From positions 3,239,001-3,303,000 of the forward strand of contig NZ_CP058986.1 of NCBI RefSeq assembly GCF_019278525.1: DNA of 64,000 nucleotides. Direction: 5' to 3'. Positions within the stretch are counted from its first letter, which is position 1. Each line of letters begins with the position of its first letter. Below, piece after piece: positions 22,614 to 28,691 of the stretch. The notes under the pieces were generated by a model that worked only from the letters and a program-made list of their open reading frames with translations, did no database searches and was not told the DNA's origin. Made by a program: the position numbers and the translations under genes. The stretch is from Polaribacter sp. HaHaR_3_91. GTDB taxonomy: Bacteria > Bacteroidota > Bacteroidia > Flavobacteriales > Flavobacteriaceae.

Positions 22614-22642
22614 AAAAAAAAGGCTTATCGTGAGATAAGCCT
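22614..22642 (-). terminator. trp attenuator terminator
   Basis: On the minus strand AGGCTTATC - TCAC loop - GATAAGCCT is followed by a run of eight T. The 9-bp perfect stem and U-tract form a strong rho-independent terminator 110 bp upstream of trpE and 44 bp after the leader-peptide stop codon. It sits before the structural genes, as in classical attenuators. Confidence 0.88.
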
Positions 22643-22710
22643 TTTTAAATTTTATGTTGTATACATATAGGTTTTTTCTCACTTATTATATAAGAGAGTT
22701 CCACCAACCT
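22630..22710 (-). promoter_or_regulatory. trp attenuator: competing RNA segments
   Basis: Three segments can be read on the minus strand. Segment 1 AGGTT (22706-22710) overlaps the Trp codons. Segment 2 GTGAGAAAAAACCT (22669-22682) starts 3 nt after the leader stop. Segment 3 AGGCTTATCTCAC (22630-22642) is the 5' arm and loop of the terminator. GTGAGA pairs with TCTCAC and CCT with AGG (2:3, antiterminator), while AGGTT pairs with AACCT (1:2). A ribosome stalled at Trp-Trp would cover segment 1 and free segment 2. A ribosome at the stop codon would mask segment 2 and allow termination. Confidence 0.75.
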
Positions 22711-22733
22711 GTATTTATTGTATTATTTTTCAT
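22686..22733 (-). CDS. trpL: trp leader peptide MKNNTINTGWWNSLI
   Basis: The 15-codon ORF has tandem Trp codons TGG TGG at codons 10-11, followed 14 bp later by TAA and then by a terminator before trpE. Trp is the rarest amino acid, so two adjacent Trp codons in a 15-codon ORF at this exact place are the defining mark of a trp attenuator. The ATG lies only 7 nt after the -7 promoter element, so the mRNA is probably leaderless or nearly so at its 5' end. Confidence 0.88.
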   Translation of the reverse strand: MKNNTINTGWWNSLI

Positions 22734-22740
22734 TGTTTAA

Positions 22741-22771
22741 CAAAAGTAAGATAGATTTTTTAAACAAGCAA
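22741..22771 (-). promoter_or_regulatory. trp operon promoter
   Basis: On the minus strand TTG (22769-22771), a 20-bp spacer, then TACTTTTG (22741-22748) match the Bacteroidetes housekeeping consensus TTTG-N19/20-TAnnTTTG. Transcription would start about 22735-22738, just before the leader-peptide ATG. Confidence 0.75.
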
Positions 22772-23395: not shown

Positions 23396-26300
23396 CTATT
23401 TCCTAATAATTCTAACATTCATCTCTTCTACTTTTTTATCAGATAAAATTGAAGGTGCATTAAACAATAAATCTTCTGATGAACCTGTTTTAGGGAAAGC
23501 CATTACCTCTCTAATAGAAGCTTTCTTTTCTAAAATCATCATTAAACGATCTACTCCCCAAGCAATTCCTCCGTGAGGAGGTGCTCCATACTGAAAAGCT
23601 TTGTACATCGTGCCAACACTTTTCATCATTTCTTCTTTATTGTAACCCATATTTTTATAGGTTGCTTCTAAAATTTCTGCTTTGTGAGCACGAACAGAAC
23701 CTCCACCAATCTCGTAACCGTTTAAGATTAAATCGTATTGTTGCGCTATAATGGTTCCTATTTCTTCTCCTTCTCCAGTCATGTGCTTTTCTAAGTCATA
23801 GATTGCTGGCATAGAAAAAGGATTGTGTGTAAATGTCCATCTTCCTTCATCTGTTTTTTCAAACATTGGAAAATCTACAACCCAAGCTGGTCTTAATTCT
23901 TTCGGGTTTATCAACTTTAAAATACGTCCCATTTCTTGACGAACAGCATCTAACGCTTTGTTAGCAGTTGCATAATCTGCTGCTGAGAAAAATACAATAT
24001 CACCAACTTGTGCATCTGTAGCTTTAATAATATTGGCTGCAATTTCTTCTCCTAAAAACTTAATAATTGGCGATTGTAAATCATTTTCATTTACAATAAT
24101 ATAAGCCAAACCACCTAAACCATTTTGTTGTGCAATGGCCGTTAAATTTTCTATTTGTCCTTTAGACATACGTTTGTTTCCTTGCTCTGCTACAGAAACT
24201 TTAATACATTTTACAATTCCGCCGTCTTCAATTGGTTTGCTAAAAACTTGGAATGTGGTATCTTTTACAATATCCGTAATGTCTTGCATTTGTAAGCCAT
24301 AACGTAAATCTGGTCTATCACAACCATATTTATCCATCGCGTTTTTATACGTAATTACTTCAAACGGACGTAAAGTCCATTTTTTACCGTAGATTTTCTT
24401 CACAATTTCATTAAACATTTTGGTGTTTAAATCGATTATTTGCTGCATACTTGCGTACGCAATTTCTATATCTAATTGTGTAAATTCTGGTTGTCTATCT
24501 CCACGAGAATCTTCATCTCTAAAACAACGTGCTATTTGAAAATATTTTTCAAAACCACCTACCATCAACATTTGCTTAAATTGTTGTGGCGCTTGTGGTA
24601 ACGTATAAAAAGAACCTGCTTGTTTTCTTGTTGGCACAATAAATTCTCTTGCTCCTTCGTCTGTACCTGCAGTTAAAATAGGCGTTTCAATTTCTAAAAA
24701 CTCTTCTTCATCTAAGATATCACGCATTAGCTTGATTACTCTATGACGGTTTACAATTGCTTTACGAACCTCATCGTTTCTATGATCTAAAAACTTATAT
24801 TGAAAACGAACATTCTCGTTCGATTTCATTGCTCTTTTTATTTCAAAAGGAAGCGTTTTAGATAAGTTTAAAATATCTAAAGCAGACGTTTCTAATTCTA
24901 ACTTACCGGTTCTTAAACCTGCATTATAATCATCTTCTTTACGCTGCACCACAATTCCGGTTACAGAAATAACAGATTCTGATTTTAATTTTACAAGCTC
25001 ATCTAAATTAGGAAATGTTTCTCTACTTAAACGTACTTGAAAAACTTGATTGCTAGAATCGCGTAAATCAATAAAAATTAATTCACCATGATCTCTAACA
25101 CTAGAAACCCAACCCGATAAAGTAACCTCATCATTAATTGAATCTTCTGATATTTGAGAAATTTTATGTGTTCTGTATTCCTCTTTTATAATAATAGGAA
25201 CTTGAGGTAACGTTTCTTCTTCTATTTTTGCCTTTGGCTGGTCACTAGTTGCTTTTAACTCATCAGCTACAGCTGCACTCTTTGTCGTTTTAGCATCCGC
25301 AGAACAAGCATTTAATATTTCTTGACGAATTACTTTCCCTGAAGCGCCTTTACCAATAATACCAATAACTTTACCAACAAGAATACCTGCTTTCCCTTGG
25401 TTTCCTGCTTTAATATCGTTTGCAGTTGCTTCATTTTCTGAAACTACTTTTGCAACGGCAGCTTTAATTTTATCTTCAGAAATGGTATTGTCTTCAAAGT
25501 ACTTTTTATAATCGAAAGTTCTATCTTTTAAATAAGATGTAATTCCGTTTTGCACTAAAACAGACGTTATTTTATCTTCTTTAAATAATTGAAAAATTTC
25601 AATTAACTGATCCACACTATGAATATTCTTATACTCATCTGCTCCAATATTATTTACCAATGTTTTGGCAACAAAAGAAGCGTCATTTATTTTATTATTG
25701 ATCGCAACAAAAACTTCTGAACGTAAAGAATCTGCTGTAAAAAACTTAGCATCTTGTGGTAAAACGCCACCTTTTATCAAAATAGATTCTACTGCAAAAG
25801 GCAAAGAACTAATATCAACATGTATACTATCTACAACTTTTTTGATGTTTACAAAAGGTAAATCTGGTTCAGAAATAAAACGATAATCTGCTTCAAATTC
25901 CTTTTTACGCATTGTTTTGGTTTGCTTTAAATCTGCATCCCATAAAACAGTTGTTTGGTCTGGTCTAAATGCTTTATTTTCTACATAATAGCTTAATTGC
26001 TTTTCAATTTCTTCCTTTAAAGCATCTACCATAAACTTAAAAGAATTTAAGTTTTTGATTTCTGTTCTTGGGTTTAAATCGTAGGTATGTTTTTTACGAA
26101 GCGATACAGAAACATCCGATTTAAACTCACCTTTTTCTAGATTTGCTTCAGATATTTTTAAATTCTGAACAATTCTTTGAATGTATTGTGCATATGTAGA
26201 TGCATCTTCTATATGACGAATACAAGGATCTGTTACAATCTCGATTAACGGAACACCTGCTTTGTTAAAATCGACTAAAGAAATTTTCTTTTCGTGCATC

Positions 26301-26731
26301 AATTTTGCAGCATCTTCCTCAATATGAACCTGCGTTAAACTTACTGTAAATTGCGAACCATCATTTCTATAACAAGAAACTTGTCCGTCTGGAATTACAG
26401 GATTGTGAAACTGTGTAATTTGTATGTTCTTTGGGTTATCTGGGTATTCGTAATGTTTACGATCCCACGAGATAATCTCGTTTGAAAAAGATGAATTAAC
26501 AGCTTTACCGAAGTAAATAGCCTTTGTAATTGCTTCTTTATTAATAGAAGGTAAAACGCCCATTTGTCCGGTACAAACCGAACATATATTCTGATTTGGT
26601 TGTTCTATTTCTTGATTTGCACAAGAACAGAATAACTTTGTTTTTGTATTTAATCGAACGTGAGTTTCAATACCGATTACTAACTCTAAGTCGTGCTTTT
26701 TAATAAGCTCATTTAATTGTTCCAGTTCCAT
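23396..26731 (-). CDS. gatB-aspS: Fusion of GatB (tRNA amidotransferase subunit B) and aspartyl-tRNA synthetase
   Basis: The single 1111-residue frame has no internal stop. Residues 1-~475 are GatB: EIHVQL-like GIETHVRLN, zinc Cys35, Cys37, Cys50, Cys53, DFNKAGVPLIEIVTDP, and the YqeY-like tail ending KVIRQEILNA. A ~40-residue Ala/Lys/Glu linker (~478-517) follows. Residues ~519-1111 are a bacterial AspRS with OB-fold (SGWVSSVRDHGELIFIDLRD), class II motif 2 (FRDEDSRGDRQPEFTQLDIE) and motif 3 (GIAWGVDRLMM). His548 in RDHG corresponds to His31 of the non-discriminating Pseudomonas AspRS (Leu in E. coli). The enzyme probably charges Asp to tRNA(Asn) and hands it to the fused amidase. The start shares one base with the gatA stop. 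Confidence 0.95.
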   Translation of the reverse strand: MELEQLNELIKKHDLELVIGIETHVRLNTKTKLFCSCANQEIEQPNQNICSVCTGQMGVLPSINKEAITKAIYFGKAVNSSFSNEIISWDRKHYEYPDNPKNIQITQFHNPVIPDGQVSCYRNDGSQFTVSLTQVHIEEDAAKLMHEKKISLVDFNKAGVPLIEIVTDPCIRHIEDASTYAQYIQRIVQNLKISEANLEKGEFKSDVSVSLRKKHTYDLNPRTEIKNLNSFKFMVDALKEEIEKQLSYYVENKAFRPDQTTVLWDADLKQTKTMRKKEFEADYRFISEPDLPFVNIKKVVDSIHVDISSLPFAVESILIKGGVLPQDAKFFTADSLRSEVFVAINNKINDASFVAKTLVNNIGADEYKNIHSVDQLIEIFQLFKEDKITSVLVQNGITSYLKDRTFDYKKYFEDNTISEDKIKAAVAKVVSENEATANDIKAGNQGKAGILVGKVIGIIGKGASGKVIRQEILNACSADAKTTKSAAVADELKATSDQPKAKIEEETLPQVPIIIKEEYRTHKISQISEDSINDEVTLSGWVSSVRDHGELIFIDLRDSSNQVFQVRLSRETFPNLDELVKLKSESVISVTGIVVQRKEDDYNAGLRTGKLELETSALDILNLSKTLPFEIKRAMKSNENVRFQYKFLDHRNDEVRKAIVNRHRVIKLMRDILDEEEFLEIETPILTAGTDEGAREFIVPTRKQAGSFYTLPQAPQQFKQMLMVGGFEKYFQIARCFRDEDSRGDRQPEFTQLDIEIAYASMQQIIDLNTKMFNEIVKKIYGKKWTLRPFEVITYKNAMDKYGCDRPDLRYGLQMQDITDIVKDTTFQVFSKPIEDGGIVKCIKVSVAEQGNKRMSKGQIENLTAIAQQNGLGGLAYIIVNENDLQSPIIKFLGEEIAANIIKATDAQVGDIVFFSAADYATANKALDAVRQEMGRILKLINPKELRPAWVVDFPMFEKTDEGRWTFTHNPFSMPAIYDLEKHMTGEGEEIGTIIAQQYDLILNGYEIGGGSVRAHKAEILEATYKNMGYNKEEMMKSVGTMYKAFQYGAPPHGGIAWGVDRLMMILEKKASIREVMAFPKTGSSEDLLFNAPSILSDKKVEEMNVRIIRK

Positions 26732-28131
26732 TATATCGTATCTTTTAAGAAGTTAGCAAACTTCAAAACAAGTTCGTCATTATTTTTTGCTGCCGTAATT
26801 TGTAATCCCGTTTCTGTTCCTTGTGGCACTGTTAATGTTGGTAATTGACCTAAACTAAAACCAACGGTATACGCATCCGATAAATACATCGCTAAAGGAT
26901 CGCTTAAACTATCTCCAATTTTTGGAGGAGAATTAGGCGTTACTGGTGATAAAATAATATCTACCTCTTTAAAATCTTTTTCAAAATTAGCTACAATTTG
27001 ATCTCTAACATTTAATCCTTTTAAATAGATTTCATCAGAAAAACCTTGCGATAACACTTGATTTCCACCAACTATTCTACGTTTAGATTCTTCAGAGAAA
27101 TTTTCCGATCGTGTTATAGAATACGTATCTTTTAAAGTATCGCCTTCTATTCTGTTTCCGTAATTGGTACCATCTAATCTAGAAAGATTCGATGCTGTTT
27201 CTGCCATTGCTAATGTATAGTATGTAGAAACTAAGGTATCAGATTCAAAGAAATCTAATTCTCTCACCTCAATTCCTTTGGCTTTTATTTTTTTGATGGC
27301 TGATAAAAAATCTGCTTTTACTTGCGCATCAATTGCATCATTTTCAATGAAATTTTTAAAATACCCAACAGTTTTAATTCCATCAGCATTTAAAATAGTT
27401 TCTTCGGATATTGCTTCTGATGGGTACGTAGTTAGATCTTTAATATCTTTACCACTCATCACGTTTAAAACAATTCTAATATCTTCGATAGATTTTGCAA
27501 TGGGCCCAACACAATCTGTAGACGACGCGTATGCCATTAATCCGAATCTAGAAATTCTTCCGTAGGTTGGTTTTAATCCGTATATTTTATTGTAACCTGC
27601 CGGTTGACGAACAGAACCTCCTGTGTCTCCACCAATTGAAAATACCGTAAAGTCTTTGGCTACATTTACTGCAGAACCTCCACTTGAACCTCCAGAAACC
27701 AACCCTGTATTAATCGCATTTTTAACAGCTCCGAAAATGGTATTTTCAGAAGAAGAACCATGACCAAAAGAATCACAATTTTCTTTTACTAAAGGAATGG
27801 CACCTGCATCAAATAATTTCTGAATAGCAGTTGCTGTATATGGTGATTTGTATTTTTTTAATAAATCTGAACTTGCCGTTGTTAAAGTTCCTTGTACCAT
27901 GTACACATCTTTAATTCCGAATGGAATTCCCTCTAACAAACCAATTTCTTGTCCGTCTGCAATTTTAGCATCTACTTTTGCAGCCAATTCTAACGCTAAA
28001 GTATCTAAAAGTGAATTGACGGTATTGTGGGTGTTCGATTTTAATAAATCTAATCTTTCTTGCACTAATTTTGTACACGAAATTTCTTTGTTCACCAATT
28101 GCTGATGAATTTTACGTATTTGCGATTCCAT
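26731..28131 (-). CDS. gatA: Asp/Glu-tRNA amidotransferase subunit A
   Basis: The 466-residue amidase-signature enzyme releases ammonia from glutamine or asparagine for transamidation. The Ser-cisSer-Lys triad is intact: Lys74 (FGIKDVY), Ser149 (SGGSSGGSA) and Ser173 (GGDTGGSVRQPA). The spacing of 75 and 24 residues equals that of S. aureus GatA (79/154/178). It lies 2 bp after gatC and overlaps gatB::aspS by one base, so the complex is made from one coupled transcript. Confidence 0.97.
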   Translation of the reverse strand: MESQIRKIHQQLVNKEISCTKLVQERLDLLKSNTHNTVNSLLDTLALELAAKVDAKIADGQEIGLLEGIPFGIKDVYMVQGTLTTASSDLLKKYKSPYTATAIQKLFDAGAIPLVKENCDSFGHGSSSENTIFGAVKNAINTGLVSGGSSGGSAVNVAKDFTVFSIGGDTGGSVRQPAGYNKIYGLKPTYGRISRFGLMAYASSTDCVGPIAKSIEDIRIVLNVMSGKDIKDLTTYPSEAISEETILNADGIKTVGYFKNFIENDAIDAQVKADFLSAIKKIKAKGIEVRELDFFESDTLVSTYYTLAMAETASNLSRLDGTNYGNRIEGDTLKDTYSITRSENFSEESKRRIVGGNQVLSQGFSDEIYLKGLNVRDQIVANFEKDFKEVDIILSPVTPNSPPKIGDSLSDPLAMYLSDAYTVGFSLGQLPTLTVPQGTETGLQITAAKNNDELVLKFANFLKDTI

Positions 28132-28133
28132 AA

Positions 28134-28400
28134 TTATTCTTCTATCACTTTAGAAACTACTAAAAATCCGTTTTTCTCTTTCGGGAAGTTTTCGATGATG
28201 ATTTGTTTTTCCGCTTGCGGACTATCAATAACAACATCTTCTCTTAAATCATCTAAAGTTACAGCATTGTTATGATTGGTATTAACGTTAGTATCTGATG
28301 TATTTGCATTTTTAATTACCTCAAATAATTGATTCACCGATTCCGATGGCTCTGCTCCTTTAATACTAGACAAAATGTCTACCGTCATTATTTTGCTCAT
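28134..28400 (-). CDS. gatC: GatC-like subunit, divergent N-terminus
   Basis: The 88-residue protein has the GatC belt signatures LREDVV (52-57) and ENFPKEKNGFLVVSKVIEE (70-88), which normally wrap around GatA and bridge to GatB. The N-terminal part is shorter than usual: the standard first helix with its I-A-x-L-A-R-L motif is not recognisable. Residues 31-45 are Asn-rich (7 Asn of 15, NANTSDTNVNTNHNN). A second Met at position 5 is an alternative start. It is the first gene of the gat operon, 2 bp before gatA, and follows the Asn-leader attenuator. Confidence 0.8.
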   Translation of the reverse strand: MSKIMTVDILSSIKGAEPSESVNQLFEVIKNANTSDTNVNTNHNNAVTLDDLREDVVIDSPQAEKQIIIENFPKEKNGFLVVSKVIEE

Positions 28401-28443
28401 TTCTTTATTTTTTAATTAAGATTCTGAAACCAGTTCAGAACAT

Positions 28444-28471
28444 GAAAAAAGCCTTCCGATTAGGAAGGCTT
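28444..28471 (-). terminator. gat operon attenuator terminator
   Basis: On the minus strand AAGCCTTCC (28463-28471), loop TAATC, GGAAGGCTT (28449-28457) and then a T-run. The 9-bp perfect stem and U-tract form an intrinsic terminator placed upstream of gatC, 44 bp before its ATG, rather than after a gene. Transcription must read through it to reach gatC. Confidence 0.88.
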
Positions 28472-28519
28472 TATGTATATATCTATAAACAACAACCTCC
28501 CTACCCTAACAATTAGGAT
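28461..28519 (-). promoter_or_regulatory. Asn-responsive attenuator: competing RNA segments
   Basis: Minus-strand RNA segment 2 UAGGGAGGUU (28494-28503) pairs over all 10 positions, with two G-U wobbles, with segment 3 AGCCUUCCUA (28461-28470), the 5' arm of the terminator. A further hairpin AUCCUAA-UUG-UUAGGGU at the end of the leader ORF can compete with segment 2. The leader stop codon (28506-28508) lies 2 nt before segment 2, so a ribosome finishing the leader would mask segment 2 and permit termination. A ribosome stalled at the early Asn codons would leave it free to form the antiterminator. Confidence 0.75.
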
Positions 28520-28553
28520 TATTGAAATTACGATTGTTATTATTATTTATCAT
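28506..28553 (-). CDS. Asn-rich leader peptide MINNNNNRNFNNPNC of the gat operon
   Basis: The 15-codon ORF has Asn at positions 3-7, 9, 11, 12 and 14: nine Asn codons, eight AAT and one AAC, with five in a row. It starts 18 nt downstream of a consensus -7 box and ends 2 nt before the antiterminator segment. The operon behind it encodes the GatCAB amidotransferase and AspRS, which together can produce Asn-tRNA(Asn). The Asn codons would therefore sense the product of the very enzymes encoded. Position, codon content and RNA folding agree; translation is not proven. Confidence 0.8.
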   Translation of the reverse strand: MINNNNNRNFNNPNC

Positions 28554-28570
28554 TGTAACGTTATTGATGT

Positions 28571-28578
28571 CAAATATA
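28571..28578 (-). promoter_or_regulatory. gat operon promoter, -7 element
   Basis: TATATTTG on the minus strand matches TAnnTTTG. A good TTG box is not visible 19-20 bp upstream. Transcription would begin about 28565, leaving a 5' region of roughly a dozen bases before the Asn leader ATG. Confidence 0.6.
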
Positions 28579-28691
28579 TAGAGAAAATGTCGTTTATAAT
28601 CTTCTTTTTTAAGATTTTATATAGCTGTTGCAGAATTTATAAAATATCGTTGTTTATTTATTGATATAACAAAATATCAAAGTTTATTTAC

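Follow-up and report, generated by a model that had tools for sequence, protein, structure and literature searches.

The window analysed here, a 64,000-nucleotide stretch of the genome of Polaribacter sp. HaHaR_3_91, carries a gatC-gatA-gatB::aspS operon on its minus strand. The matches of gatC (28134..28400) to TIGR00135 (25.5 bits) and PF02686 (21.8 bits) are both below cut-off and the gene is placed by its position before gatA, which itself (26731..28131) has TIGR00132 as its best match (430.7 bits, below the cut-off of 481.1) and also matches PF01425 (374 bits). The third gene (23396..26731) encodes a GatB-AspRS fusion of 1111 aa that matches NF004012 (391.7 bits over 338) and NF001750 (715.4 bits over 443), with GatB at residues ~14-472 and, at residues ~518-1109, an AspRS of bacterial type with a GAD domain.

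Reading the minus strand towards the gatC start (28400), we find in order a promoter-like box, a leader ORF, a segment called region 2 and, within a terminator, region 3. The box, TATATTTG (28571..28578), has the form TAnnTTTG, which we take to be the Bacteroidota -7 promoter box; the leader RNA would then start at ~28563. The leader ORF (28506..28553, minus strand, ATG to TAG) has 15 codons, 9 of them Asn, for the peptide MINNNNNRNFNNPNC. Region 1, AAUAACAAUC (28532..28541, minus strand), lies inside the Asn codon run and can pair with GGUUGUUGUU at 28497-28488 (1:2 stem), and a small hairpin, UCCUAA...UUAGGG, seen as a pairing in the alignment described below, spans the stop codon (28504..28518, minus strand). 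Region 2, UAGGGAGGUU (28494..28503, minus strand), is the 5' arm of the putative antiterminator and begins 2 nt past the leader stop. As DNA, this segment (TAGGGAGGTT, 28503-28494) is complementary over its whole length, two G-U wobbles included, to AGCCTTCCTA (28470-28461). The latter is region 3 (AGCCUUCCUA, 28461..28470, minus strand), common to antiterminator and terminator. The intrinsic terminator (3:4 stem; 28445..28472, minus strand) reads AAAGCCTTCC-TAATC-GGAAGGCTTT followed by a T-run, with AGCCTTCCTA within its 5' arm. The original prediction had described the box, the 15-codon ORF with 9 Asn, the post-stop segment and the terminator before gatC, and proved correct to the base; the full complementarity, with two wobbles, that it stated between the 10-nt segment 2 nt past the stop and the terminator 5' arm was likewise confirmed. 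This anatomy is a direct computational observation, and it is unusual in its surroundings: on both strands of the window, only one of 558 ATG-started ORFs of 10-25 codons has at least 6 Asn, and this is the leader ORF. Dinucleotide shuffling of the 300 nt upstream never gave nine Asn in 5000 rounds, and only 2 of 200 shuffles folded better than the 125-nt leader (z -3.04).

We next determined how far the leader is conserved. An Asn-rich leader precedes gatC in 46 of 79 informative fusion loci (45 of 78 named loci plus the window) and is absent from 33, a count made on Asn content alone (at least 5 Asn and at least 35% Asn in a short ORF at most 350 nt before gatC), the CCTTCC terminator not being demanded. 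These loci comprise 80 named fusion loci and the window, less two (L097 and L102) whose contigs end inside gatA. In an overlapping set of 20 genomes plus the window, the leader is present in 13 of 21. A covariance model of the leader, run over 397 genomes of the family, gave 37 strong matches (97.7-133.9 bits, one per genome), set apart by a score gap from the next best at 53.6 bits, and gatC lies ~100-130 nt behind the leader in all 30 of the 37 that were examined. The collection of 66 distinct leaders bears out the proposal that the Asn-rich ORF would be found in relatives: they have 14-17 codons with 6-10 Asn, start with ATG in 65 cases and GTG in one, and stop with TAG in 65 and TAA in one. 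The collecting pattern demands the ORF end AATTTC..CCTAA and the CCTTCC terminator, so that those letters are conserved by construction; one strong model match before gatC (L155) was missed by it and is outside the 66. The TAnnTTTG box, which is not part of this pattern, stands 13-23 nt before the leader start in all 66 (random 60-nt pieces of the window, 4.8%). Within the Asn run AAT (291) and AAC (97) are freely interchanged, and departures from the majority codon fall on the third position 105 times, on the second 70 times and on the first 31 times. In one leader (L074), an extra base before the stop makes the ORF (MIINNNNRNFNNPNLLG) end two codons beyond the usual 15, and the hairpin over the old stop is retained.

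Stem statistics were taken from an alignment of the 66 leaders, in which one row (L075), off by one base in A3, was retained. In the 3:4 terminator stem 97.7% of cells are paired, and it covaries: three pairs are changed on both sides (as high in 22 of 500 shuffles), for a total of 32 cells changed on both sides (as high in 0 of 500 shuffles, with a shuffle mean of 11.5). The 2:3 antiterminator stem is paired in 98.3% of cells, is nearly invariant and displays no covariation among the 66 leaders; it is too conserved to covary, so that covariation speaks neither for nor against the antiterminator. The expectation that both stems would be kept and would covary thus holds for their conservation, and as to covariation for 3:4 only. 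For the 1:2 stem, 93.9% or 87.6% of cells are paired, depending on which of two fixed registers is used, with no covariation beyond shuffles in either; an association between alignment columns 28 and 69 (p 4e-10, 65 of 66 rows) is confounded by ancestry. The hairpin across the stop is paired in 94.7% of cells, with one pair changed on both sides in two sequences, where CCT has become TCT together with G to A after the stop (one such pair in 40 of 500 shuffles; two such cells in 0 of 500).

These last changes bear on a first alternative, in which the conserved C-terminal NFNNPN would answer to a different signal by stalling the ribosome via the exit tunnel, the Asn codons being incidental; TnaC and ErmCL are nascent peptides that arrest in this way. 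The last codons, AAT-TTC-AAT-AAT-CCT, are indeed more uniform than the preceding run, where it must be considered that the collecting pattern demanded most of these letters. However, such uniformity fits RNA pairing, the two leaders with TCT replace Pro by Ser with a compensating G to A, and the Asn leaders before asnA and asnB, presented below, retain Asn runs with quite different C-termini. We thus regard peptide-driven arrest as very improbable.

Folding was then used to follow the pairing of region 3. As long as region 3 has not been transcribed, the Asn run is predicted to be paired with the 3' half of region 2 in 66 of 66 leaders. Equilibrium folding of the full-length RNA gave the terminator in nearly every state (in 66 of 66 leaders both for the free RNA and for the ribosome at the stop, in 64 of 66 for the stalled ribosome) and was dropped as a switch test in favor of folding an RNA cut just after region 3, with assumed ribosome footprints of 13 or 15 nt. 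In this cut RNA, region 3 is predicted to pair upstream in 66 of 66 leaders when the ribosome sits on the Asn run, in 0 of 66 when it sits at the stop and still in 64 of 66 without a ribosome. As the terminator is favored at equilibrium, the switch must be kinetic and occur during transcription; the trp attenuator switch is kinetic as well. When the spacer between stop and region 3 was shuffled, region 3 paired upstream in 151 of 330 cases, so that the folding test taken alone is weak and not very specific. The pairings 1:2, 2:3 and 3:4 are mutually exclusive by computation, and the anatomy of classical attenuation that had been proposed for the locus fits these predicted folds.

A second alternative, in which the terminator would be constitutive, the short ORF incidental or insulating and the regulation located elsewhere, could draw on the equilibrium folds, nearly always the terminator, and on the 33 of 79 informative loci that have no such element. 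It leaves aside that all 66 aligned leaders retain, directly past the stop, another stretch with complementarity to region 3, and that the Asn codons are retained even though their third positions drift; we find it hardly probable.

We next asked what the operon would provide. A full-length match to the fusion occurs in 23 of 149 Flavobacteriaceae genomes (nearly one per genus; fragmented genomes may hide more) and in 3 of 296 genomes of a phylum sample, all three Flavobacteriaceae. One locus from a 6.6-kb metagenome contig labelled Lentimicrobium (L096) groups among Flavobacterium in the fusion tree. The fused AspRS carries RDHG (His548 invariant in 21 sequences) and the standalone AspRS RDKG; we take a His at this site to mark non-discriminating AspRS, for which the literature searched offered no usable marker residue, and it would fit a fused AspRS that is non-discriminating and charges tRNA(Asn). 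Both tRNA-Asn genes of the window genome, read from their letters, have U1-A72, the pair that bacterial GatCAB needs according to the available text of PMC4206432.

Besides the operon, the complete window genome encodes AsnRS, standalone AspRS and GlnRS, and the operon is, to judge from this gene content, not the only route to Asn-tRNA. GlnRS is present in all 40 genomes tested, including the 23 with the fusion, and of the 49 fusion genomes searched for AsnRS (from 50 of the 80 named loci, with L065 left out), 48 have one over cut-off. The one exception, Flavicella marina (L106), lacks the leader too, and here the operon may be the sole source of Asn-tRNA. The idea that leaderless loci are those without AsnRS was rejected, given 48 of 49 genomes with AsnRS and Flavicella marina as a single case.

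Asparagine synthetases were counted next. With NF006949 at its curated cut-off, housekeeping AsnB is found in 0 of 23 fusion genomes and in 52 of 57 others, and AsnA in 0 of 23 fusion genomes and in 5 of 57 others (G007, G023, G033, G053 and G060), the latter being exactly those non-fusion genomes that lack housekeeping AsnB. As a result, neither enzyme occurs in any of the 23 fusion genomes and one of them occurs in each of the 57 non-fusion genomes, a mutual exclusion established by computation, in which the counts are not independent since the genomes are related. The set of 80 holds all 23 genomes with the fusion and 57 of the 126 without a full-length fusion match, the latter chosen by handle order among those 99-100% complete up to a total of 80, with one (G037; 99%, 320 contigs) omitted. 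Whether an AsnB is of housekeeping type was first judged by the manner of its profile match, and the NF006949 recount was chosen after this first result, a tree and a scan of three proteins. TIGR01536 alone was rejected as a marker of housekeeping AsnB, as AsnB-like proteins exceed this looser cut-off in 9 of 23 fusion genomes and 56 of 57 others, and in 16 of the 50 genomes of a further fusion set. A tree was built from 14 of the 52 housekeeping AsnBs, the 11 AsnB-like copies of the 9 fusion genomes and 4 others; none of the 11 copies groups within the clade that holds the 14, and two scanned AsnB-like proteins from fusion genomes reach 247.5 and 293.1 bits with NF006949, vs a cut-off of 499. 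If some of these proteins make asparagine, the operon would not be the sole route in those genomes. The window genome has no AsnA, no NF006949 AsnB and nothing over the TIGR01536 cut-off.

It is this distribution, the mutual exclusion with AsnA and housekeeping AsnB, that leads to a reading as asparagine biosynthesis: the operon most likely takes the place of asparagine synthetase by a tRNA-dependent route. It would be one source of Asn-tRNA in a genome that also has AsnRS, a standalone AspRS and GlnRS. That the operon instead serves Gln-tRNA(Gln) or general tRNA amidation, with Asn codons that are not a logical signal, has in its favor that NCBIfam names GatCAB for both substrates and is exceedingly unlikely in view of GlnRS in 40 of 40 genomes (all 23 fusion genomes among them), of a GatB fused to AspRS and not to GluRS, and of an operon that excludes AsnA and housekeeping AsnB.

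Asn leaders were also found before the synthetase genes. At asnA loci, an Asn-codon leader with a terminator was seen by eye in 5 of 7 (L210, L211, L212, L177 and L215; not L213 and L214), where L177 and L215 had been found via the leader model, so that the unbiased asnA figure is 3 of 5. Four of these five are tandem leader-terminator units (L177, L215, L210 and L212); by eye, the second Asn-rich ORF of L177, L215 and L210 continues into PPPGG codons that lie in a GC-rich stretch. Before housekeeping asnB, an Asn-run leader with a terminator is present in 11 of 52 upstream regions. Six pass an automatic test that demands a perfect-stem terminator (L243, L247, L250, L258, L221 and L223), the same test run upstream of asnB for 12 other amino acids giving 0-2 passes each, and five were accepted by eye on sequence and fold (L248, L254, L260, L263 and L266). 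Uncounted are the asnB Asn ORFs of L237 and L241, with no terminator behind them, and that of L219, with three Asn. Read by eye, all 11 asnB leaders except L221 have a CTTGT after the stop, which in most matches a CAAG of the terminator 5' arm; the gatC leader differs in this. The asnA and asnB leaders have C-termini and stems unlike those of the gatC leader and so are no mere copies of it. The 260 nt scanned upstream of the window genome's own asnS contained no Asn-rich leader.

The leader model also yielded weaker matches, 11 of which were examined; seven lie behind a leader-like ORF (L170, L171, L173, L174, L175, L177 and L215) and four display nothing clear (L172, L176, L178 and L179). Among the seven, Ile/Val- and Ile/Thr-rich leader peptides with terminators precede ilvD (L173 and L175, the gene identity in L175 being read by eye only), ilvE (L174) and an aspartate kinase/homoserine dehydrogenase gene (L171). 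Going by sequence, these four are other amino-acid attenuators laid out as the gatC leader is. A short ORF (MFTLKIIETKMMLQT) with a terminator precedes an EF-G-type gene in L170 (TIGR00484, 841 bits) and is possibly an attenuator of a translation factor. The window itself holds a Bacteroid-trp leader (RF01692, 53.2 bits; 22634-22753, minus strand) before trpE, 5.7 kb from the Asn leader, which by eye encodes a Trp-Trp peptide, MKNNTINTGWWNSLI.

The presence of the leader can be followed on a tree of 79 fused proteins, where 8 changes are required, against 25.4 on average after shuffling, and well supported branches force no fewer than 6 of the 8. This is consistent with an old leader that may have been lost several times. 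Conservation in relatives, as originally proposed, is thus confirmed at 46 informative loci and fails at the 33 others, which also means that the gatC operon can work without a leader. At leaderless loci a loose TAnnTTY lies at most 80 nt from gatC in 32 of 33 (TAnnTTTG in 15), mostly 35-40 nt before the gatC start codon; these are raw counts, not set against chance.

Taken together, the evidence points to a ribosome-mediated transcription attenuator of the trp/his type, which would sense Asn-tRNA(Asn) in front of the operon that makes asparagine on its tRNA, a reading to which we assign a probability of roughly 0.86 on the basis of sequence comparison and modelled folds. In this proposed mechanism, transcription would start at ~28563 and a ribosome would begin the leader peptide. 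With ample Asn-tRNA, the ribosome would reach the stop and cover region 2, so that the 3:4 terminator ends the RNA at ~28445. With scarce Asn-tRNA, it would stall at the Asn codons and mask region 1, region 2 would pair with region 3 as an antiterminator, and RNA polymerase would read into gatC-gatA-gatB::aspS. The fused AspRS would then load tRNA(Asn) with Asp for amidation by GatCAB. This would restore the sensed molecule, and the operon would supply asparagine where no recognised asparagine synthetase exists. We infer that the leader is translated, that ribosomes stall on it, that transcription terminates there in vivo and that the fused AspRS is non-discriminating. We also lean, with less confidence, towards a family-wide Asn regulon, in which at least three sequence-distinct Asn attenuators, probably of separate origins, would stand before gatC-gatA-gatB::aspS, asnA (often in tandem) and asnB; in lineages where the fusion replaced asparagine synthetase, the attenuator would sense the direct product of the operon, and the repeated loss of the leader would leave tRNA-dependent asparagine supply unregulated.

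If true, the leader-peptide attenuation known for other amino acids extends to asparagine, and an aminoacyl-tRNA that arises by transamidation controls its own synthesis via the ribosome and not via a T-box. As asparagine synthetase is cleanly exchanged for the fusion, and some of the genomes have an Asn switch ahead of each alternative, the re-attachment of a signal to replaced enzymes could become testable. Annotation would list the operon as GatCAB and AspRS only; the proposal assigns it a function and a mechanism.

Ribosome-mediated attenuators are known for the trp, his, thr and phe leaders and for pheST. The gatC leader resembles these classical systems in its leader ORF rich in codons of one amino acid, its stop beside region 2, its exclusive 1:2, 2:3 and 3:4 pairings and its terminator before the operon; it differs from them in its Asn codons and in its operon, whose route to the charged tRNA would be Asp charging followed by transamidation. 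The type of switch is classical and its use for asparagine looks new. No Rfam 15 family reaches its gathering score on the gatC leader: below gathering, Phe_leader scores 32.0 (vs 55) and Thr_leader 23.5 (vs 55). The Bacteroid-trp leader is likewise a leader-peptide attenuator of this phylum, with its copy before trpE in the window; however, it has Trp codons and a sequence of its own, and the Asn leader, at 23.5 bits with the RF01692 model (gathering, 49), is not a member. An Asn leader peptide or an attenuation of asnA was not found in the open papers searched, and a GatB-AspRS fusion is not mentioned in the abstracts found. In the same family, leader-peptide attenuation before amino-acid operons was already suspected from the transcriptome of Flavobacterium psychrophilum, where structured 5' regions carry leader-peptide clues (PMC9723704, available text); its main text contains no gatC, aspS or asparagine.

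Direct binding of tRNA(Asn) or asparagine by a riboswitch or T-box would be the other way to sense the same product, and according to the available text of PMC4206432 a T-box has this very purpose in Clostridium acetobutylicum. At this locus we consider it most improbable: the element is largely a leader ORF with two stems, and the Rfam matches listed up to E 5, 13 in number, include amino-acid leader families but no T-box. Rfam contains T-box models, and its scans of the window and of 28390-28640 gave no match to one.

The enzymatic route itself has precedents. As far as the available part of PMC4206432 goes, tRNA-dependent asparagine synthesis was shown biochemically for Bdellovibrio, and a survey already places Bacteroidetes among 18 genera that have it; Bdellovibrio, Deinococcus and Thermus combine AsnRS and GlnRS with GatCAB and a non-discriminating AspRS, and lack asparagine synthetase, as would the present genomes, where the fused AspRS is putatively non-discriminating and no asparagine synthetase is recognised. 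Unlike in those genera, the second AspRS is here fused to GatB and of bacterial type with a GAD domain, whereas a second AspRS in the 18 genera is described, in the same available text, only for Deinococcus-Thermus and is of archaeal type.

For regulation, the closest counterpart is the T-box before the tRNA-dependent amidation operon of C. acetobutylicum (Saad 2012, 2013, cited in the available part of PMC4206432). It qualifies the view that control of GatCAB and AspRS by Asn-tRNA had not been described, a view that seems to stand for the leader-peptide form: leader-peptide control of an AspRS-GatCAB operon via tRNA(Asn) seems undescribed. In both cases, as far as that source extends, the state of tRNA(Asn) controls, or here would control, AspRS and GatCAB despite other routes to Asn-tRNA. 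The Clostridiaceae concerned also have an asparagine synthetase (PMC4206432, available text), whereas none is recognised here, and the T-box, as presented there, binds the tRNA itself, whereas here the predicted sensor is the translating ribosome.
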